Assembly (NCBI GenBank): GCA_011634665.1
Contig: WAEK01000016.1
Coordinates: 748,501 to 812,500, forward strand
Source of the DNA: Mortierella sp. BCC40632
Lineage: Eukaryota > Mortierellomycota > Mortierellomycetes > Mortierellales > Mortierellaceae
DNA: 64,000 nt
Direction: 5' to 3'
The translations under genes and the position numbers were made by a program. The notes below the pieces were generated by a model that saw only the letters and a list, made by a program, of their open reading frames with translations, made no database searches and was not told the DNA's origin. Shown piece after piece: positions 8,182-55,495 of this stretch. Each line of letters begins with the position of its first letter. Positions within the stretch are counted from its first letter, which is position 1.

Positions 8182-11086
8182 TTAGTAGGTGATCTCGGCA
8201 AGCACAAAGCTCTCAAAGTCCTTGGGAGAAGTGCCCTTGGTGAGCTTGCGCTGGGCAACGAGAGCAACGGTGTACTGACCAGCAGGGACCTTAAGAGGAA
8301 GACCGGTGTTCAAGTCAGCAAAGACCTCACCGTTTCTCCAGGCATAGGTCGTGATGGAGGGCTTGCCAGTGGTAGAGTTGATGTTGCGAGAGCGTCCGAT
8401 GGCACCCAAGTTGCGACCAGCCTGAGTGTTGATGTAACCAACCTGCTTGCCCGAGGCCTTCTCATAGAGACGGATCGAGAGGAAAGGAGTGTGGCTTCCG
8501 AGACGGCTGAAGATGTAAGGCTGCTCAACGGCCCAGTCGATCTTGTGACCCTTGGGGGCGGGGGCAGACTGACCAGTCTTGGTGTTCTGGATAAGGAGAG
8601 CGGGGGTACCGAAATCAGTGTCCTGGATAGGGACCTTGGAGACATCACCCTTGATACCGCCATAGGGGATACGAACAGGGATAGAGTCCTTGCCACTGGG
8701 AGTGGCAACAATGTAACCGCTGTAGAAGGGGAACTCCTCGGCCTTGCCGGTCTTGGGCTCCTTGAACTGGATCTTAACCTTGGCAGTTTGACCGGCGCGA
8801 ACAGTGACCTTGTTCTGGTTGAACTTGACAGAGGCATAGTCCTTGGCCAAGATAGGGCGAAGCAAGGGGAAGGTGTTGCCTCCACGGTAGCTGATAACAG
8901 ACTGAGCAACCTCATGGCTCAAAGTGTAGGTGACGGTCTTCTTGCCAACGTTCTTGATCTTAACCTCAACACTCTTTCCAGCAAAGTTAACAGTGTCCAA
9001 GAGCTCAATCTTGTCGGGCGAGAAGAGGGACTTGACGTTGATGGCGTTCTTAAGGTTGATAAGACCAGCACCCTGCTTGGCAACGGGGGCAATCTCCTTG
9101 CTCTTGTAGAACTTGCCAGGGGTGGCAGTGTTCTTCAAGATCTGACGAGCATCCTGACCACGGAGGATCTTCTTGTGGGCATTGAAGAGAAGAGCGTGAG
9201 CACCAGCAACATAGGGAGCCGACATGGAAGTACCGGACTCGACGGCATAAGAGCCCAACTTAATGGGGTAGGTCGAGAGGATGTTGCCACCGGGGCCAGC
9301 AATATCGGGCTTAAGGCGAAGATCGCCATCAAAGCCCCAGGACGAGAAGTCGGAAGGAGAACCACCACCCTCGATTCTGAACTGCTTCTTGGCCTTGGAC
9401 CAAGTGACCTTGTTAGCAGGGTTCTTGCGGGCAGCGGCAAGGATCTGGTTGCCGGCCTCGTTCTCAAGAGCAGCCATAGGGAAATCGGGGTTACCGCCCA
9501 AGTTGTTGAGACCCAAAGGAACGGACTGGACAATCATACCAGCGGCACCGGCAGTCTTGCCAGCAACACCACGGCCGCCAGACTTGCAGCGGGTGGTGTC
9601 ACCGAGGACAAGGACGACCTTGCCAGTGACGTTGTGACCAGCATACGACTCGGGGAGACATCCGTCGGAGAGGGTACCATCCTTGTCAAGGATAGGGACG
9701 ATGGTAGCCGAGGCAGGGAGGTCGATGATCTTGCCCCAGTTGCTGGAGGGGTCATAGGGGTACTCCTTGCCAGCGTAGGTAAGGTAGAAGTAATCACCAG
9801 CAATGTTGTCATAAGACGCGACCGAGGTCGACAAGTCACCCAAGCCAGTGTTCGAGACACTCCAGACACCCTGTAAGAAGGTAGAGAAAGAGGAAGAAGG
9901 AACAAACAAAGTGAGCAAAGGGCCCTGAAGAAATAATAGATGGGCAGACAACAAACAAACAAACAAAGAGGTGGGGGCGGGGAGGACTTTAGACTCTATG
10001 GTGATATAATCGGCCCGATACTTACATCGGCACCATCGTTACCAGCAGAGGCAACGACAGTCAAACCATGGGCAGTGAGACGGTCAGCGAGGACGGCAAT
10101 GGGGTTGGACTTGTAGGAAGAGCCAGAGCCGAGCGACATGTTGATAATGTTCATGCCCTGGTTGAAAGCAAGCTCCATTGCCTAGAATGTCAAATTACCC
10201 AAAACAAAAAAGGGGGAGAGGACAACACACATGAGGATTGTTTGTTGTTTATGTGAGCAAAAAATGTTGGAGGAACTTGAGGAAAAAGGAAAATAAAAAC
10301 ATCTGCAACCCAAACAATAGAAATAGATCTGCCCGCCAAACTTACCAACATGATAATATCGCTGGAACCTTTACCAGCGCAACTGAAGATGCGGTAAGCT
10401 CCAAAGGTGACCTCAGGGGCAACACCAACAAAAGGCTGAGGAGCCTTCACCTTGCGAGCATCGGCACCGATGATACCAGCAACGTGGGTACCGTGACCGT
10501 TGCAGTCATCCTTAGGATCAGCATCAGGAGCAGCGACACCAGTAGTGTCATAGTTGTCACCGACAAAGTCCCAACCGTAACGGACACGGCATCCGCGTCC
10601 AAAGCATCCTCCCAAAGCAGGGTGAGTGTAGTCAACTCCCGAGTCAATGACTCCGACCTTGATACCCTTTCCGGTGTACTTGAAGGTCTTTTGGACATAG
10701 TCGACTCCGGTCATCTTGTGGGAGGTGGTGAGATGGGGGCTAGCAGGGTCCTCCTTGGAGAGGTTCTGCTTGGGCAACTGGTAGCGCTCAACGGGCCAGA
10801 CACGCTTCACACCAGGGATCTTGGCAAGGTCCTCGCCCTTGTGCTTCGAGTTGACATTGATTGAGACACCGTTGAACTGACTGAACTCACCACGGACCTT
10901 GAAGTTGACCTTGCGCGAGTTGAAGTAGGAGTTGGCCTTGGCATGGTCGAAACCATCTTCGTACTCAATGATGTAAGCACCCTCGATAATGTCGACATCG
11001 GGGCGGATCTCAGAGGGCACGAACTTGCCAGCAGCGACAAGGCCAGTAGCGGCAGCGAGAGAGATGAGAGTAGCAGTGATTTTCAT
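8182..11086 (-). CDS. secreted subtilisin-like serine protease (S8) with PA domain
   Basis: Three exons on minus (11086-10346, 10181-10026, 9870-8182; introns 164 and 155 bp) encode 861 aa. Residues 1-20 form a signal peptide, followed by an inhibitor-I9-like propeptide to about residue 110. Catalytic residues are visible: Asp148 in VGVIDSGVDYTHP, His198 in NGHGTHVAG and a Ser near residue 514 in SGTSMSAPYVAG. A protease-associated (PA) insert lies at about 350-440, between His and Ser. The 270 residues after the Ser look like the Fn3-like domain of the minor-extracellular-protease/C5a-peptidase subgroup. Likely an extracellular nutritional protease. A long open frame opposite exon 3 is a shadow. 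Confidence 0.93.
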
Positions 11087-11298
11087 GGTGAGGAATGGAT
11101 ACAGTAGTAATGGGGATGGTTAGCGAGAACCACGGAATGGGAAATGAAAAATGACCGTGAAGACGGTGGCAGGGGTAGAGGAAGGAGGAGAAGGGGGGGG
11201 GGGAGAGGAGGGACCGTGAGGTGGAGAGGAGGGAAGGTTGGCGAAGGCTAGAGAGAAATGAATCTGAGGAGAAAGTTGGGGTTGGGGGATGGTTCTGC

Positions 11299-21651: not shown

Positions 21652-24132
21652 ATGCATAGTCTCGCCTCTTCTGTGCGTGCCGTCCGCGCACTTCCGCGCT
21701 TCAGCACCTTGACTGCTACCGCTGCTCCTTCGCGCTCCTTCCTCACGGTCGCTTCTACCATCTCGCGTCGCCAAGTGGCTATGACTGCACAGAGAACCTC
21801 TCTTCAGCGTATCCAGGCTATGGGCCACCGTCAGATGCCTGCCATCCGTGCCTTTTCTCAGTCAGTTCCTGCCTTGAACGAGGAAGAGGCCGAGGAAGAG
21901 GCCGAGGAAGATCCAACAAAGGCCGAGCGATTTGCGGATGAGACTGATGTGGTCATTGTCGGAGGTGGTCCTGCTGGATTGAGTGCTGCCATCAAGCTCA
22001 AGCAGCTTGCAGCGGCCGATGGTCGCGAGATTCGCGTTGTTGTGGTCGAAAAGGCCGGAGAAATCGGTAGGGGGGCCAAACATTGACCAAAGAAACCGAG
22101 AAAAGGGGGTGAAGAGGGAAAGAGGATGCATACAGCATTCTTGTTTCGTTTGTTTGTGTGCGATACCTGTGGTCTTTGCTTTACTAAAAGTTGTTTCTCG
22201 TTAATGATCTCACCAGGTGCTCATACCTTGTCGGGTGCTGTCCTCGAGCCTTCGGCATTGAACGAGTTGATCCCTGACTGGAAGGAGAAGGGGGTAAGTA
22301 GTGTCGACAATCGAGTTTTGCTTTACTAAGCGCTTGAGGTGATCGAGTGGACTCGACTTGGTGAGACCCATATTAACCATGGCACTGGAATGTCTTTTTT
22401 TTTTTTGAATCATGGTGAATTAGGCACCCCTGAACCAGCCTGCGCTGCGCGATCAAATGAAGCTCTTGACCAAGAACTATGCGATCCCAATTCCTCACCC
22501 ACCCCAGATGAACAACGAGGGTAACTACATTGTGTCGCTTAGCAGCTATGTCCGATGGCTCGGAGAGCAGGCCGAGGAAGCAGGAGTCGAAGTCTTCCCT
22601 GGATTTGCTGCCAGTGAGGTAAAAAAAGAAAAAAAGAAAAAAAATTCATTTTTTTTCCCACGTTCCCATGATGATTCCTTTATTTGTCACAATAATTTGG
22701 GGAATCGAGGAACAAAAAAAGAAAAGAGCTCCGAGAGAGTGAGAAAAAAAAGGAAAGATCGAGTAGACTGACCCGGTTCATTCCTGCACAAACAGGTTCT
22801 GTACAACGAGGATGGCAGCGTAAGAGGTATCGCAACCAACGATGTCGGTCTCGATAAGGACTTCAAGCCCAAGGACAGCTTTGAGCGCGGTATGGAGTTC
22901 CACGCCAAGGTCACTCTCTTTGCCGAGGGTTGTCACGGCTCCTTGTCCAAGCAGGTCATTCGCAAGTTCAACCTTCGGGAGGACAGCGACCCCCAGACAT
23001 ATGGTATCGGCATTAAGGAAGTCTGGAAGATCGACCCCGCAAAGTCGGATCCCGGCACTGTCATTCACACCCTTGGCTGGCCTATTGACTACAGCACCTA
23101 CGGAGGCTCCTTCATCTATCATATGGGCGACGACACACTCAGCCTGGGAATGGTAATTGGTCTCGACTACGAAAACCCCTACTTGAGCCCTTACAAGGAG
23201 TTCCAGCGATTCAAGCACCATCCCTTTGTCAAGAACCTCTTGGAGGGTGGTGAGTGCATCGCCTACGGAGCTCGTGCTTTGAACGAGGGTGGTCTTCAGT
23301 CGATCCCCAAGTTGTACTTCCCTGGTGGAGCTTTGATCGGTTGCACGGCTGGATTCCTCAACTTGATCAAGATCAAGGGTACGCACACAGCCATGAAGTC
23401 AGGTATGCTCGCTGCTGAATCAGCGTATGCTGCCATCAACTCAGAGTCCTACTCGGAGGACAAGCCCGTGGTCCTCGAGGACTATGAGCAAAGAGTCAAG
23501 GATAGCTGGATCTGGAAGGAGCTCTACGAGATCCGAAACTGCCGACCCAGCTTCCACTCGCCCCTCAAGAACCTCGGAGGCATCCTTTACTCTGGCATTG
23601 ACACCATTCTTCTCAAGGGCCGAACCCCATGGACCTTCCACAACCGCACGCCTGATCACGAGTGTCTCAAGACGGCAAAGGTCTCTGAAAAGATCGAGTA
23701 TCCCAAGCCTGATGGTGTGATTTCGTTTGATCTCTTGACCTCTGTCTCCAGGACGGGTACCAACCATGCTGAGGACCAGCCAGTTCATTTGCGTCTCAAG
23801 AACAAGGACATTCCTGTGCAGCGCAACTTGAAGGTCTTTGATGGACCCGAGGGTCGCTTCTGCCCTGCAGGTGTGTACGAGTTTGTAGATGATGAGAATG
23901 GACCCGAGGGCGCACAGAGGCTGCAGATCAACTCGCAGAACTGCATCCACTGCAAGACCTGTGATATTAAGGACCCAAGCCAGAACATTGACTGGACCGT
24001 TCCCGAGGTATGTATAAATTTACAAAATGCAAAGCGGTGCATGGATATAAGATCAGCTTGCTAATGACTCGATTTTTTTTTTTTTTTTTTTTTTAATAGG
24101 GTGGCGGTGGACCCCAGTACTCGTTCACCTAA
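21652..24132 (+). CDS. ETFDH: electron-transfer flavoprotein-ubiquinone oxidoreductase
   Basis: Inner-membrane enzyme that passes electrons from ETF (fatty-acid and amino-acid oxidation) to ubiquinone. Five exons: 21652-22066, 22217-22293, 22424-22618, 22796-24007 and 24100-24132, total 643 aa, normal for the family. Residues 1-70 are an Arg/Ser/Ala-rich mitochondrial targeting region. The FAD dinucleotide-binding motif [13 protein letters not shown] lies near residue 105 and the conserved Y-G-G-S-F-I-Y-H and NEGG regions are present. The C-terminal [4Fe-4S] ferredoxin-like part has [22 protein letters not shown], completed by the last 33-nt exon ending [10 protein letters not shown] polyadenylation-like AATAAA is at 24217-24222. 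Yeast calls the homologue CIR2. Confidence 0.97.
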
Positions 24133-35982: not shown

Positions 35983-38212
35983 TTACTTGGTTGGGTTACT
36001 TCGTCGCCTTGTCTTCTTGCTGGGCTTCTCCTGCTCAGCATTCGCCTCCACTTTCAAAGGCCGCTTTCCCTTTTGTGGAGATGAGACCACTGGCCAATTG
36101 ATCGAATTGCGAACATTGGAGTCAACCTCTGCTGTTGCAACGATCGTCTTGTTCTCAAACTCTTCTTCCTCATCCTTGAAATCATCTACGTGATAGAATT
36201 CTACCATCCCTCCGGTTGTTTTCCGCGCCGTCTGCTTTTTTCGAACAGGGACTTCCTTTTTCCGATCGATCAAGGAATTGCAGTAGGCGTAGTAGAAGCG
36301 GATATCGTTCCGATGGAATGGTTGTTGTTGTCCAACTGTCGAGGACGGGTCTTGTCCACCGACCGTCTTGATCTGAGCATGGCCAATCCTAGACGGCAGA
36401 GATCCATCGTTCCCTTTGTCCTTTGTTTCAGCAGTCTCGACAACACTGGTATCATTGGTGTGGAGAATAGTAGAAGGAAAAGGACCACCGATTTTCTTTC
36501 TAGCTGTTTCCCGAGTAGGCCGCCTGTCTCGCTCGATATCCTCATCCTCGTCACTAAAATCATCTACATGTCGAATGGTGGAAGGAAGAGGCCCTCTTGT
36601 TGATTTTGTTGCAAAGCACCGGATCCTGTTCGTTTCCTCAGTCCTGGATGACAGGGACCTATCGCTCTCTTTATCCTTTGCTTCAGTAGTCTTGGTATCA
36701 TCGATGTGACGAACAGTAGAAGGAAAGGGTCTACCAATCTTCTTTCTAGCTGTTTCCCGAATAGGCCACCTGTCTTGCTCAATATATTCATCTTCATCAC
36801 TGAAATCGTCCACATGTCGAATGTTGGAGGGTAAAGGTCCTCTTGTCGTTTTTGTTGCGAAACACCGGATCTTGTTCGTTTCCCTAATCCTGGGAGGCAA
36901 ATATCCATCATTCCCTTTGTCGGTCGCTTCAGCACTCTCAACAGCCTTTGTATCATCGATGTGACGAATAGTAGAAGGGAAGGGTTTACCGATCTTCTTC
37001 CTGGCTGTTTCCCGAATAGGCCACCTGTCTTGCTCAATATCTTCATCTTCATCACTGAAATCGTCCACGTGTCGAATGTTGGAGGGAAAAGGTCCTCTTG
37101 TTGTTTTTGTTGCGAAACACCGGATCTTTTTCGTTTCCACACGCTCCTCCTCCTCCTCCTCCTTCCCCTCCTCTTCCTCTTCCTCCGAAACGTAATCGTT
37201 CTCATCTAGGCCAATGTCCTCATCCTCGTTCTCCATCTCGTCATCATACATCCCTTCACTATCATACTCGTCCTCCTCAACTTCCCAGTCTTCATCTACA
37301 TGTCGAATCGTCGAGGAGAGGGGTCCGCCCGTAGATTTCCTGGCTCTGCAGTATATCCTTGGACTGTCCTTCTCATCATCTACTCTGTTCTGATGGGTAT
37401 CATCCACATGCTGAATCGTCGAAGGGAGGGGCCCATTGGTTCGTTCCCTAGCCAGATAATTCCTTGGATATGGACCCTCCTCCTTATCAGGCCGCATTCC
37501 CCCATAGATGAATGCTCGTGATTGTAGATAGCGCTCTGTCCAAAGGTCGAGGTCTTCATCGCTTGGTTCTCTACGGAAATGCCTTCCTGGCAGGTACCCG
37601 CCTGTAGATTTCCTAGCCCTGTAGACAACCTTTGGCTCCTCTTCCTCTTCCTCTTCCTCTTCCTCCATATCGTCGTTGTTCTTGTCGTCCAATTCTTCAC
37701 TATCGTCTACATGGCGATACCCTCGTGGCAAGAACCCACCAGTGGATTTCCTGGCTGTGCATACAATCCCTGAATTACCCTGACCATCGTTCTCAAAGCT
37801 CTCATCATTACTATTGTCCTTTTCATCCAATGCTCCAGTGTCTGGTTCGTTGTCTTGGTGAGGGTCGTTTACATGTCGAATAGTTTGGGGAAGGCGCCCG
37901 CCTGTAGATTTCCTGACCCGGTGTGCAACGTGTCGTGTCCCGGGGAGCAAAGAACCTCCTGTTGTCTTTCTAGCTGTAGTTTTCTGGGAAGAAAGGAAAG
38001 ATGAATGTTAGTCTTATAAGCAACGCCTTCTCTTTGACTCAAAAGTAGAAAGCAAGTCATCGTACGGGCAAGGAAGGAGGTCACTTTTTTTTTTTTTTTT
38101 ACCTGTCCGTGGTCGTCTCTATCATGACTGGAATTGGTAATGCGTTTCGATTTGGAAGGATTCAGGCGTTTGCCTGTTGTGGGTTTTTGGGTAGGTTTTT
38201 TTTGGGAGGCAT
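35983..38212 (-). CDS. repeat protein with multiple histone H3-tail-like ARKSTGG motifs, 5' end uncertain
   Basis: Main exon 37983-35983 (666 aa plus stop); a small upstream exon ends at 38103 and splices in phase 0 over a 119-bp intron. Exon-2 numbering: A-R-K-S-T-G-G, identical to H3 residues 7-13, at 77-83, 123-129 and 214-220; near-identical copies at 4-10 (ARKTTGG) and 23-29 (VRKSTGG); KQTARKTTGG at 583-592, matching H3 4-13 except S10T. Diverged copies read ATK[ST]TRG (291, 376, 458) and TARKKIG (326, 411, 493). Most are followed by P[LF]PS[TN]IRH[VI]DD and acidic linkers. The basic C-terminus (KKTRRR) resembles a nuclear localisation signal. No enzyme domain. Function unknown; binding of histone-tail readers or writers is inferred. 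The likely ATG (38212) is out of frame across an eight-A run, so the start is unresolved. Confidence 0.75.
36580..37130 (-). repeat. about 250-bp tandem repeats within the H3-tail-like repeat gene
   Basis: Three copies of an 82-85-codon unit, each holding one ATKxTRG block and one TARKKIG block (ATK positions at exon-2 residues 291, 376 and 458). They are more similar to each other than to the rest of the protein, indicating a recent internal duplication. Confidence 0.8.
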
Positions 38213-42014: not shown

Positions 42015-45000
42015 TTAGTCTAGCAACGAATTCTGACGCATTGTCGTAGGTTGCATAGGTGCATATCCTTGCATATATTGCTGTTGTTGTTGCGGTTGTT
42101 GGAGAGGTTGTTGTTGTGGCTGCTGCTGCTGATATAGTGGTTGCTGCTGCTGCTGTTGTTGATACACAGGCTGTTGCTGCTGTTGATACACAGGCTGCTG
42201 CTGCTGCTGATACACAGGCTGCGATTGCTGGTACATAGGTTGCTGTTGCTGCTGAGGAGGAGGCTGCTGCTGGTAGACAGGTTGCTGGTATCCACCTTGG
42301 AACGGTTGTTGCATGGGCTGCTGCATCGGTTGTTGCTGTGGTTGATACATTCCTTGAGCTGGCTGCGAATATTGCATTTGAGGTTGGTATTGAGCACTCG
42401 CTGGAGGCGCTTGTTGCGGCTGTGAAGGTTGGATGGGAGAGTATCCAGCATAAGCAGGTTGCTGCTGTTGTGGTGGGTTGGGTTGATACTGTTGATACTG
42501 TGGTTGTTGCTGTGGCTGTGGCTGTGGCTGGAACTGTGGAGGTGTCTGCATTGATTGCTGCACCGGCTGCGTTGCTTGTTGTTGATACATCGGCTGTGGC
42601 TGTTGGAAGGAAGGCTGCCGCTGTGGGGGCTGGAATTGAGGCGACTGTTGATAGGGCGACTGGCTCTGGGGTGCACTCTGCGGCTGATACTGACCTTGGA
42701 GGGGCTGCTGCTGGTAAGAGGTTTGCGGCGTCATGGGCTGGTAGGCAGGGCCTGGTGTTGGTTGAACAGGAGCAGGAGTCGGCGCAGGGGACTGGTACAT
42801 GGGTGCCTGACTTTGTGCCGTTTGGTAGGGTTGCTGTGAGGGTTGGAACTGCGAGCTAGGAATAGGCTGCATCGGTTGCATCGGTTGCATAGGTTGCATA
42901 GGTTGCATAGGTTGCATTGGACTAGGCAAAGAGTAGCCAGCTTGGGCTTGAATAGGCGGCTGGGATACCTGGGGAGGAGGCGCAGGTGCGGGTGTAGACG
43001 GAAGCGCAAATGGACCAGTGTTAGGAATCACCAAGTTGTTCGCCTGTTGAAGAACCGTAGCCGTTGCAGGTGGCTGTCCATAGGTTGTAGCAGGGCTTGC
43101 CATTGGGGCAGAAGCCTGCTGGGGCGCAAAGGCAGGAGCAGCGGGAGACACGCCGACACTAGAATAGCTCGCTGGAGGGGGTGCTGTGGGCCTCCATTGA
43201 GGCACAGAGGGGGGTACTGGGGCAGCTCCAGGGGCCCGAGCTCCACCGCCGAGGCTCATACTCGCCATAGCGTCGATTGGCAGAGAGCTAGCTGGGGGCG
43301 AGGACACTCCACCAAGCTTGGAGAGTTGATCCTTGAGCACCCTGGACTCGCGCTCAGCTTGGGTGGAAAGGATCTGTCGCTCTAGCATAATCCTCTCTTC
43401 CTTTCTCGTCGAACAGAACTGGTCAACAGCCTTTGAAAGGTCCTGGATCTGTTCATTCAAGTCTTCATAGAATCGGATGCCCTTTTTGAAGCCATCCTTG
43501 ACGGCCATGTATGATCCCTTGGTTCTCAGTAGCTGATCAACCAAGCCCTGTCGTTTACGCTCTGTTGTTTCCCACACTTCTTGCAGATTCCGTGCCTCCT
43601 GGCCTTTCATCAGTTCCTTGTAGTGGCCTGTCAGCTCCTGCATCAATGCTTGTTGATGGTGAATGGTAGCAGAAATGCGGCTCTGATGGGGCCTGAACTT
43701 TTCCAGCTCCTGCGTAAACAATTGAGTCTCGATTCCAGACGATTTCTTGTTGAGAATAAGCAAGTTGGAGATGTCATCTTGTTGTGTCTATGCAAAACCC
43801 CAGGGAAGATAAAGTGAAAAAAAGAACGTTTTATCAATAACTGGGTTAAAAGAGGTCTGGACCACACAGTAGAAATCCAACATCTCCAACGATAGATTTA
43901 CCTTGGTCTTCAAGTCTTCAAGAGTCTCGATACGCTCTTGCTTCAATTTCTTTAGCTTAGCAATGGATTCCTCGACCTTGGCTACTGTCTTTAGTATCTG
44001 CTCGCTCTCTCCATTATCTTCAACATCCAAGAGCATGTTATCGGTCTTGGATCCTCGTCTCGATTTGTTGGCATCAACAACAACTCTTGCAAAGAGCTGA
44101 TCCAGGGCAGCTCCTTCTCTTCCGTTCCGAAGCACCATGGTATGGTTTGCGATTTGTTCAAAGGACCGATGTACGTTGTGATCCGATGAGGCAGCCTTAT
44201 CAAGGGATTCCATGAGAGCTCTCGAGTCGGCCCTGTAGACCTGGGTGAGTGGACCTGATGGACGTTGAGTCCATTGGTCGGCATACTTTGCCTACGGAAA
44301 GAATAAAAATGAGATTTCAGTTTACTATCTAAATGAAATATCTAAAAAAAATAAAAAGACCTGATGATGAGATTAGGACTTTACAAAGAACGCAAAAGGA
44401 CTTACTCGCAACATCTCGCACTGGCTGAGCTCCTCATCCAGCAACAGACTCGTATTATCCAATGACCCTCTCGCTCCTGACTTTGCCCGGTCCAATGCAG
44501 CAATCAAATCCGCAATCGATTCGCCACTATTCTCCTCCGCCTGAATAAAGTCAGCACACTCCTTGACTGATGTGGGCGGAATGGCAAGAGCATCGAGTGA
44601 CGTGTTTTGATTGCCGTTGGCTCCGCTCTTGAACTTTTCCAATCCTGCGGGTAGGTTCATAAACTCTAGTGCGCTTGTCAGTTCTTGGTTGGCAGTCTCA
44701 CATCGCTCTGCTTCAGCACGAACAAGCTTTGCCTTTTCTTCAGAGTACAAGCTCGATGATTCGTGGACCGACAGAGGAATAAGTCGCTGGAAAGTATCGG
44801 GTCCGATCACCTTTTGCATCTCACTTGGCGAGTACAGTTCAGAAATGGGCAGAGGCTTTGTCGCATTGAGTTTTTCCAAGGCTGGTAAGGCATTCTCACC
44901 GGGCACTGCTTCATGGTAGATCAAGTCATTGTCTCGAGTTGCCTGCGCCTTCTTCTCAGTGATGATGGCCAGATAACTCTTTGTAATCTCGAAAATGTGG

Positions 45001-48615: not shown

Positions 48616-49672
48616 TTCCAATAGTGCAGCTCGAACTTTAGGAATTTTTGAGACACGTTCACTTACCAGCACCCATGACAATTGCATCCACGCTACCATG
48701 TGTCTGTCGATAGATCTCGGGTCCAGTAGTTGTGTAATGAGCCTCAAAATTGGCCAGATTCTCAAATTGGTCCGCAAAGAATCCAGTCTTTTTGGGTCCT
48801 GATGCCGACTCTGAATCTGATGAAGACGACGACGACGACGCTCCCTCGGATTCGTCCTTTCCAAACTCGAGAGCACGTCTCTTTGCCAGGTTTACAAACT
48901 GATTCTTATCGACAATGCTCACAGGTCGAACCTTTTCCACATGGGCTCCGAGTTTTTCAAGCAGTTGCGATTTTTCAAGCGCGACATCATCGGGCATGAC
49001 AATCCATGCATTGTAACCTCGAGCTTTGGCAATCATTGCTAACGAGATGCCTGTTGATCCGACCGTCCCTTCGAAGATGGTTGATCCATTGCCTGGGGTC
49101 AAGATGTGATTTTTCTCTGCAGTGTCGATCATGTTTAACGCAACCCGATCTTTTGTACTTCCTCCGGGGTTTAGGAACTGGACACGGACAATGATTCGAA
49201 TCCACAAAGGATCGGTTAGGGAGACGAGAGTTCTTGTTTTTCAACAACAGAGCAATGGTAGACAAAAGCTATCACTCTTCCTGTGGGGAAAGAATGAAAG
49301 AAAGATGGACTAGCTTACCTCGGCTTTAGCAAGAATCTCGCATCCAGTCGCATCGCTCAAGGACTTGATCCGCATCATGGGTGTATTTCCGATCAAGCCA
49401 GAGACACCGTCGCAGACCGAGTCACTTCTATCAACTCGTCCGAACGAGATAAAGTTGCTAATGCTCTCGCTAATCGAAGCTCTACGACGCATCCCAGAGC
49501 CGGCTTGGTCTCTGCCCGAGTTGGAACGACGTCTCGAGTTTCCTTGAGAAAGATCATTGATTCCTTTGGTTGCGAAGAGGACAGCGGTTGTTGAGAGGGT
49601 GAAAAAAACGCCAAGCGCTGCACCGATGGCGATGTGCTTGTTCTTGTCGGAGAGAGCAACAGAGTCGAACAT
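48111..49672 (-). CDS. mitochondrial membrane-anchored cysteine synthase-like PLP enzyme
   Basis: Exons on minus 49672-49319, 49177-48667 and 48556-48111 encode 436 aa. The fold-type II PLP lysine lies in LNPGGSTKDRVAL and the phosphate-binding loop is GAGTGGTLAG; TVGSTGISLA binds the substrate carboxylate. One hydrophobic segment (about 13-33) near the N-terminus resembles yeast Mcy1 and Aspergillus CysF/Cys12-type proteins, outer-membrane relatives of O-acetylserine sulfhydrylase whose substrate is less certain. A Ser/Asp-rich insertion (SSSSSSSDSES) lies between the two lobes. Intron 2 holds a 33-base T run on the sense strand. Diverges from the OXLD1-like gene over 670 bp. Confidence 0.9.
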
Positions 49673-54146: not shown

Positions 54147-55495
54147 ATGATTCCAGCACTCGTCGGACGCAATGGTCGCCGTGCATTCGCAGGCCTTGCC
54201 TCTGCCTCATTTGTCTCCATGTCGACACACTCATCCCAGACAAAGTCCGCTGCATTGTCGATTGCTGATTTCAGAAGTGACACTTGTAAGATGGCACTCA
54301 GGTTAATACAAAGAGTAGAAAAAATGGCTAGTATCGGATCCATTTGACCTAACACTCCTAGCCGTTACTCTCACTCGTTGGCGTACTCCTTATTCTAGTG
54401 ACACAGCCAACGGACGAGATGTTCAGGGTCATGCAGGAGGGATCTCGTGGCGACGACGTCTATGAAGAAGACGAATCCGTTCGCTCGCTCGAGTCCTACG
54501 TTGCAAAACTGGCGGGTCATGAAGCAGGTCTCTTTTGCGCTTCGGGTACCATGACCAACCAACTCGCCTTTCGTGCCTCTCTCTTGACCCCTCCCGCATC
54601 CATCCTTTGCGATTCTCGGTCCCATGTCTTCCGGTATGAAGCAGGAGGCATTGCTGCTCACTCGCAGGCTACCGTCTACCCTGTCCAGGCCATCGAGAAC
54701 AAAGGCCATCATTTGACGGTCAAGGACCTTGCTAGGGAATTTGTTGAAGACGATCAAGATGTCCACATGGCGCCTACACGGCTCATCTCGCTCGAGAACA
54801 CCTTGAGTGGAACTGTTATGCCCCTTAGTGAGATCCAAGCCATTGGACGATTTGCAAGAGAAAGGGGTGTGCGCCTCCATCTAGATGGTGCTCGAGTGTG
54901 GAATGCTGCCGTAGCAGAAGGATGTTCGCTCGAGTCGATCACAAAAGAGTTTGACAGCGTCTCTCTCTGTGTTTCCAAGGGAATCGGCGCGCCGATCGGC
55001 AGTGTGTTGGTTGGGGAGAAGGAGTTTATTCGCAAGGCTCGCCATTTCCGAAAGATGTTTGGGGGTGGATGGAGACAGGCAGGTGGTCTGGCCTCAGCTG
55101 CACACTGGTGTATCGAGAATGTGTGGCCAACAATGGGTGAGACCCACCTGTTGGCGAAACACCTTGCGCAGGGACTGGAACAACATGGAGGAGGGGTCAA
55201 GATCACGATCCCCGTGGAGACCAATATGGTGTTTTTGGATCTAGCAGGATCAGGGATCCGGTTGAGCGAGCTGAGTCGACGTCTTGAGGAGAAACGCATC
55301 AAGATTGGCAATAGCAATGCGAGGGCGGATCAGACTCAGGTGCGACTTGTCCTGCATTGGCAGATCTCTCCACAGGCGGTCGAGGACTTTATTGAGGTAG
55401 TCAAGGATATGGCCCAAAATGCGTCGCAGACAGGTGTGGCCGAGGACGACAAGAGTGGAGAGATATCGAGCATGCCTGTGTATGGCAGCCGTTAG
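54147..55495 (+). CDS. GLY1: low-specificity L-threonine aldolase
   Basis: PLP enzyme splitting threonine or allo-threonine into glycine and acetaldehyde. Exons 54147-54285 and 54399-55495 give 411 aa. The family opening FRSDT-x-TQPTDEMF spans the intron, and the PLP-binding lysine is about residue 240 in SLCVSKGIGAPIGS. The LHLDGARVWNAA block and the C-terminal RLVLHWQI region are intact. About 40 residues precede the catalytic domain and are basic and Ser/Ala-rich (GRNGRRAFAGLASAS), so a mitochondrial or dual location is possible; an internal Met at about residue 25 could start a shorter form. Confidence 0.94.

Follow-up and report, generated by a model that had tools for sequence, protein, structure and literature searches.

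Does the open reading frame at 35983..37983 encode a real protein that repeats the tail of histone H3 around Lys9 and, if so, what might such a protein do? The frame lies within a window of 64,000 nucleotides from Mortierella sp. BCC40632, the whole stretch of DNA analysed here. Its strand, reading frame and coordinates had been given correctly in the original prediction. An open reading frame check found 666 codons plus a stop, with the stop codon at 35983-35985 and coding sequence at 35986-37983 on the minus strand, and the frame stays open back to 38007. It is not the complete gene, however: no in-frame ATG precedes the first motifs, and thus at least one upstream exon must lie outside it. 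A strong-looking 3' splice site lies at 37984, with a CTAAC branch-like site and the sequence TTTCTTCCCAG. Two arrangements of the first exon are possible, one with a GT donor and no ATG and the other with a GC donor and an ATG. The exon upstream of the CAG/GTAAAA donor is open to 38348 with zero in-frame ATG codons, whereas the CAG/GCAAAC donor at 38174 would give a GC-AG intron and place the ATG-started peptide MPPKKNLPKNPQQ in frame. This second donor was chosen by eye, the splice scan having made stricter demands on GC donors. The parts of the gene are as follows.

35983..37983, minus strand: main coding exon, encoding an acidic repeat protein predicted to be mostly without structure
37984..38102, minus strand: likely last intron, 119 nt, if the CAG/GTAAAA donor (at 38103) is used; 3' site and CTAAC branch-like site
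38174..38212, minus strand: alternative first exon with its ATG at 38212; candidate GC-AG intron of 190 nt, chosen by eye

When aligned to QTARKSTGG, the protein shows 13 units that resemble the Lys9 region of histone H3 (residue numbers here are those of H3). The original prediction had counted a dozen copies; its 12 units all stand, and the total rises by one overlooked unit, LARERTNGPLPSTIQHVDD, which has Glu in the K9 place. ARKSTGG does occur exactly three times, and the three further copies named with it (ARKTTGG at 37974, VRKSTGG at 37917 and a C-terminal KQTARKTTGG, with ARKTTGG at 36228) were recovered, as were six diverged blocks (ATK[TS]TRG three times and TARKKIG three times). The unit is bipartite: the H3-like motif makes up its first half and IRHVDD belongs to its second. 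A form of xLPSxIRHVDD continues units W2, W3 and W5-W12, and an acidic linker follows many of them.

37954..37980, minus strand: unit W1, TTARKTTGG
37897..37923, minus strand: unit W2, HRVRKSTGG
37735..37761, minus strand: unit W3, CTARKSTGG
37597..37623, minus strand: unit W4, YRARKSTGG
37432..37458, minus strand: unit W5, YLARERTNG, Glu at the K9 place, the overlooked unit
37324..37350, minus strand: unit W6, CRARKSTGG
37093..37119, minus strand: unit W7, CFATKTTRG
36985..37011, minus strand: unit W8, ETARKKIGK
36838..36864, minus strand: unit W9, CFATKTTRG
36730..36756, minus strand: unit W10, ETARKKIGR
36592..36618, minus strand: unit W11, CFATKSTRG
36484..36510, minus strand: unit W12, ETARKKIGG
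36208..36234, minus strand: unit W13, QTARKTTGG, preceded by K; KQTARKTTGG equals H3 4-13 but for Thr in place of Ser10

A search of a set of 5.8 billion proteins returned one homologue among the 7979 scored candidates, which were those sharing most words with the query. This is BGW38_000208 from Lunasporangiospora selenospora, also of the Mortierellaceae, a hypothetical partial protein of 524 aa (E 4.7e-59, 32% identity over 73% of the query). With residues 1-420 of the homologue as query (7938 candidates scored in the same way) L. selenospora was again the only homologue. Known members therefore come from two species, the window fungus and L. selenospora. A protein from Allacma fusca, at E 9.7, was set aside. 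For the C-terminal 122 residues none of 79 candidates reached E <= 0.001, a result that says little, since the known homologue was also missed. The two proteins share the N-terminal pair of units, an IR[FY]YY helix region, a last unit of the form RxKQTARK[ST]TGGxxxxYHVDD and a basic tail. Homologues that keep IRHVDD and lose ARKSTGG had been proposed as evidence against the H3-like reading; the L. selenospora protein, from one species only, keeps both halves.

The homologue has 9 units. K9 and A7 are present in all nine, R8 in seven and Ser10 in five, while the window protein keeps K9 and A7 in 12 of 13 units each, R8 in 10 and Ser or Thr at position 10 in 9. Over the 22 units of both proteins, no motif residues are more constant than A7 and K9 (21/22 each); position 10 holds Ser or Thr in 14, and 18 retain the second half, H-[VIT]-[DENH]-[DE]. 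ARK[ST] itself occurs in 5/13 window units and 3/9 homologue units, with looser forms elsewhere. These counts retain 13 of 18 listed stretches in the window protein and 9 of 11 in the homologue; those left out, by eye, are five with scores of 10-14 in the window protein and two with a score of 10 in the homologue. Context or register led to the retention of five units scoring below 20, four of them in the window protein and one in the homologue. At position 10, Lys replaces Ser in W8, W10 and W12 (36484-37011) and Arg does so in homologue units 4-6. This change from Ser10 to Lys or Arg in the expanded modules may be either a parallel change or one inherited from a shared ancestor.

The likeness to H3 is greater than chance would give. 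The window protein has 9 stretches that score at least 20 (BLOSUM62) against QTARKSTGG and its homologue has 8; 1000 shuffles of each protein gave means of 0.13 and 0.10, respectively, and never more than 2. In the 49.9 Mb of the fungus's own genome, a DNA pattern covering ARK[ST]TGG, which is blind to motifs split by an intron, gave 9 matches, five in this gene and four in H3 genes; the same pattern run backwards as a control gave 2. A chance match was rejected because the shuffles do not exceed two and the genome pattern is confined to H3 genes and this gene.

The middle of the protein is formed by tandem modules, spaced at 246 and 255 nt.

36370..37125, minus strand: three tandem modules of 85, 82 and 85 codons with two counted units each; dN/dS 0.23-0.30

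Pairs of modules have dS of 0.33-0.71 and dN/dS of 0.23-0.30. The share of changes falling at third codon positions is 15/32, 32/56 and 29/54 in the three pairs, and Fisher tests gave p of 0.003, 3e-6 and 1e-4, with rounded site counts and with pairs that are not independent of each other. The low dN/dS, the excess at third positions and the Fisher tests together indicate that the protein is most likely translated and under constraint. A pseudogene or untranslated frame would be in keeping with the lack of an in-frame ATG before the motifs in the main exon and upstream of the GT donor. We regard it as highly improbable in view of 666 open codons, a homologue at E 4.7e-59 and the substitution pattern of the modules, and the GC-AG intron would supply an in-frame ATG. 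A third, decayed unit may also be present in each module (DKGNDGYLPPRI is one example); these were noted by eye and left out of the counts. In these candidates an LPxRI-like second half is kept better than the first, and ARK[ST] is gone.

The homologue is the member nearer to H3. Its start, MPREKQTARKSTGG, equals H3 at 12 of 14 places, in register, and the exact sequence KQTARKSTGG is present twice. BLASTP of the homologue against the H3 of the window genome gave E 1e-4, with 17/39 residues identical in an ungapped alignment, and a second TGG at the same spacing is matched to the TGG after H3 K27. The window protein against H3 alone gave E 0.005. Sequence searches of the whole PDB gave no significant match: H3 reached at best E 0.14 with the alignment of the two proteins as query (89 matches; among the best 60 of these, those that are not H3 are anaphase-promoting complex subunit 4) and E 0.85 with the homologue as query (18 matches, mostly H3), and the window protein had no match up to E 10. 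The N-terminal register at 12 of 14 places and the ungapped match of 39 residues suggest descent from the H3 tail. The window protein and its homologue thus probably descend from the H3 N-terminal tail, on a similarity that is short.

Domain searches did not match the protein to a described family. No Pfam domain is over the cut-off in the window protein, with two matches far under it (E 0.017 and 0.068). The homologue has no Pfam match, the Pfam histone domain is absent from both proteins, and NCBIfam gave no match. The original prediction knew of no family with such a layout, which holds against Pfam, NCBIfam, PDB sequences and the open-licence literature searched. In its own genome the window protein matches only its own locus; the homologue matches 8 places, six in this gene and two weak ones elsewhere (E 0.16 and 3.1). 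A transposon-encoded protein was considered and rejected, as there is one locus bar the two weak matches and no Pfam domain over its cut-off.

AlphaFold2 gave a mean pLDDT of 37.7, with 622/666 residues below 50, which, with an alignment of two sequences, is weak evidence of disorder. Two short aromatic-rich helices are the sole semi-confident structure. By eye, the homologue seems to have a counterpart of the more N-terminal one, which stands unaligned in the MAFFT alignment. The aromatic-rich helices may be the true partner-binding parts. A simple script pattern for a nuclear localisation signal found none in the window protein; the basic tail is a candidate by eye.

37504..37560, minus strand: predicted helix, residues 142-160, block pLDDT 55-68
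36256..36303, minus strand: predicted helix, residues 561-576 (IRFYYAYCNSLIDRKK), block pLDDT 57-81, conserved in the homologue
35986..36081, minus strand: Lys/Arg-rich C-terminal tail, candidate nuclear localisation signal by eye

The same genome holds machinery that could act on H3K9-like sites. It has a single Clr4/Suv39-like Pre-SET locus, whose SET domain Pfam confirms; next to this locus, on the same strand, lies a partial match to the chromodomain (16-53 of 53). A single HP1 gene, which combines a chromo with a chromoshadow domain, and four genes for H3 also occur. Of 219 chromodomain candidates 150 were scored, and at least 150 matches, with HP1 and the Clr4-like locus among them, lie over the cut-off. 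Eight further chromodomain loci were opened, chosen as top and equal-scoring. All eight share an identical stretch of 25 residues carrying Y, W and Y, the chromodomain cage places named in PMC3350952; in seven of the eight the integrase motif HPQTDGQ stands next to it, and Pfam confirms one chromodomain. Judging from these motifs, the opened loci belong to a large chromodomain retrotransposon family. A ligand of the PxVxL type for the HP1 chromoshadow domain, sought with the pattern P.[VI].[LIVM], had no match in either protein. In the HP1 protein the first cage aromatic appears by eye to be Phe, not Tyr.

The reading that we favour, tentatively and with somewhat less than even confidence, is that of a disordered, probably nuclear, lineage-specific mimic of the H3K9 tail, which would serve as a Clr4 substrate and as a scaffold or sink for several chromodomains. 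The Clr4/Suv39-type methyltransferase of the same cell would methylate the K9-like lysines, six of which in each protein lie in sites matching the published Clr4 preference. The methylated repeats could then dock several chromodomains at once, those of HP1 and of Clr4 itself, and avidity would make the protein a soluble scaffold, or else a sink, for the H3K9-methyl machinery. The sequence facts are direct observations; that the protein descends from H3, lies in the nucleus, becomes methylated, binds chromodomains and acts as a scaffold or a sink is our inference, and it might either promote or drain heterochromatin. The H3K9-mimic reading behind the original prediction, of which the decoy, scaffold or self-assembling platform named there would be possible forms, gains from the homologue keeping both halves of the unit and being nearer to H3, from the constancy of A7 and K9 and from the Clr4-type SET and HP1 genes of the genome.

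Clr4 is described as preferring R at -1, S over K and R over T at +1, and T far over C over S at +2 (PMC7700585). For SUV39H1, R, K, S and T are reported as accepted at +1 with a stringent need for R8, and for SUV39H2 mainly S (PMC8303541). RK[SKRT][TCS] occurs 6 times in each protein, every time within a unit, and ARK[SKRT][TCS] occurs 5 times in the window protein and 6 times in the homologue against about 0.01 per shuffle. The +1 place is S, T, K or R in 21/22 units. Only 6/13 window units and 6/9 homologue units satisfy the full Clr4 preference; the window misfits are three units without R8, three with Ile at +2 and one with Glu for K9. The restriction of the +1 place to these four residues and the six RK[SKRT][TCS] sites per protein favour a lysine writer over a Ser10 kinase, with the qualification that the unit counts are not independent, owing to duplication, and that changes of Ser to Thr or Arg are easy single-base steps. 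Other points stand against the mimic reading. The H-[VIT]-[DENH]-[DE] half has no account in H3 mimicry, adding the candidate decayed third units would lower the A7 figure, SUV39H2 takes mainly Ser at +1, a PxVxL-type ligand is missing, and the likeness to H3 is not significant across the whole PDB. Precedents for reader binding differ: methylated H3-like sites in G9a/GLP are reported to bind HP1 and one in ATF7IP the MPP8 chromodomain (PMC9768651), while a methylated ADNP ARKS peptide is reported not to bind HP1 (PMC3022755).

Other readings use the same observations. The repeats, methylated or not, might be decoys that compete with H3 and restrain silencing, or that absorb the chromodomain integrases of the many retrotransposons, a reading that we think rather unlikely. 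The abundance of chromodomain matches in the genome (at least 150) and the HPQTDGQ motif at seven of the eight opened loci fit it, as does the reported interaction of the chromodomain of MAGGY, a fungal retrotransposon, with H3K9me2/3 (PMC3350952). Phosphorylation beside the methylated site is reported to block HP1 binding in G9a/GLP (PMC9768651), and K or R in place of S10 in 7/22 units could remove such a phospho-switch, but K9 is absent from one of those seven units, and the elements and the gene merely coexist in the genome. A unit serving instead as a motif for another partner, through its GxLPSxIRHVDD half and the acidic linkers, with the H3 likeness a relic or incidental, has a similarly low probability in our estimate. 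The second half is indeed kept in 18/22 units and the expanded modules drift from H3 at R8, S10, T11 or G12. Even so, A7 and K9 each persist in 21/22 counted units, no gene other than those for H3 and this one matched the DNA pattern for ARK[ST]TGG, and the homologue carries the exact KQTARKSTGG twice.

Aurora kinases act at H3 Ser10, where 14-3-3 proteins also have a role. A multi-site substrate for an Ser10 kinase of the Aurora type, a variant raised in the original prediction, or a 14-3-3 platform would agree with Ser or Thr at position 10 in 14/22 units, some of them without R8. Position 10 is K, R or G in the other 8, whereas K9 is kept in 21/22, which makes this variant less favoured, and we hold it to be very unlikely. 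The H3K9 mimic of the preferred reading can also be stated in a stronger form, which we put forward as speculative and on balance unlikely: a fungal lineage may have captured the H3 tail and multiplied its Lys9 region into a polymeric H3K9 tail that forms a protein of its own, which Clr4 would methylate and which would bind many chromodomains together, tuning heterochromatin or disarming the chromodomain integrases of the host's retrotransposons; in both lineages the units with Lys or Arg at position 10 would escape phospho-release.

Known systems offer partial parallels. The H3 tail itself has KQTARK[ST]TGG, and the homologue follows it in register from the start as M-x-R-x-KQTARKSTGG, but here there is no histone fold (by Pfam), and each protein has 9-13 copies of the motif, along with acidic linkers. 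The internal H3 mimic of Swi6/HP1 fills a chromodomain. Its role there is described as autoinhibition (PMC7192584); Swi6/HP1 is thus also a fungal chromatin protein using an H3 mimic, although the mimic is internal to HP1 and here forms a separate repeat protein. The H3K9 mimics named in the cited accounts are G9a/GLP and ATF7IP (PMC9768651), LIG1 and WIZ (PMC10611923) and ADNP (PMC3022755). Mimics of the G9a type are likewise non-histone proteins with a motif of the ARK[ST] kind, but as described in these accounts they have one or two short sites, whereas 13 and 9 units and a longer H3-identical stretch are found here. The histone-mimicking interdomain linker of BAZ2B (PMC5663869) is, in its published description, also disordered, resembles a histone and is linked to the multivalent binding of histones, but it sits between reader domains, and no reader domain was found here. 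A loose four-residue H3K9-like motif is reported in 8230 human proteins in a human interactome study (PMC10611923), so that a lone ARK-like site means little; by comparison of the sequences, the repetition and the identity to H3 over 10-14 residues stand out. No repeat protein of the H3K9-motif type was found among the papers listed, mostly the ten top-ranked per search, from the open-licence literature. Within that literature a many-copy H3K9 repeat protein would be a new form of histone mimicry, single or paired H3K9 mimics being already known. A natural protein with about a dozen H3K9 sites would be a ready-made multivalent probe of how valency controls HP1 and Clr4 and, if the reading is true, would show a histone tail that has become a regulatory protein in its own right. 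With it one could test directly whether a soluble polymer of H3K9 sites seeds, limits or diverts heterochromatin.

The repeat gene is flanked on its own strand by an exon of a PCNA gene (PF00705, 34101-34430, minus strand) and, on the other side, by an exon of a polyprenyl synthetase gene (PF00348, 39578-39952, minus strand); further genes between these and the repeat gene are possible. Elsewhere in the window, Pfam identified ordinary genes at 8185-10038 and 10193-11119 (minus strand), 22772-24061 (plus), 42018-43787 (minus), 48662-49240 (minus) and 54362-55492 (plus). Among their types are a subtilisin-like protease, an ETF-ubiquinone oxidoreductase, an ALIX-type protein, a PLP-dependent enzyme and a member of the beta-eliminating lyase family.
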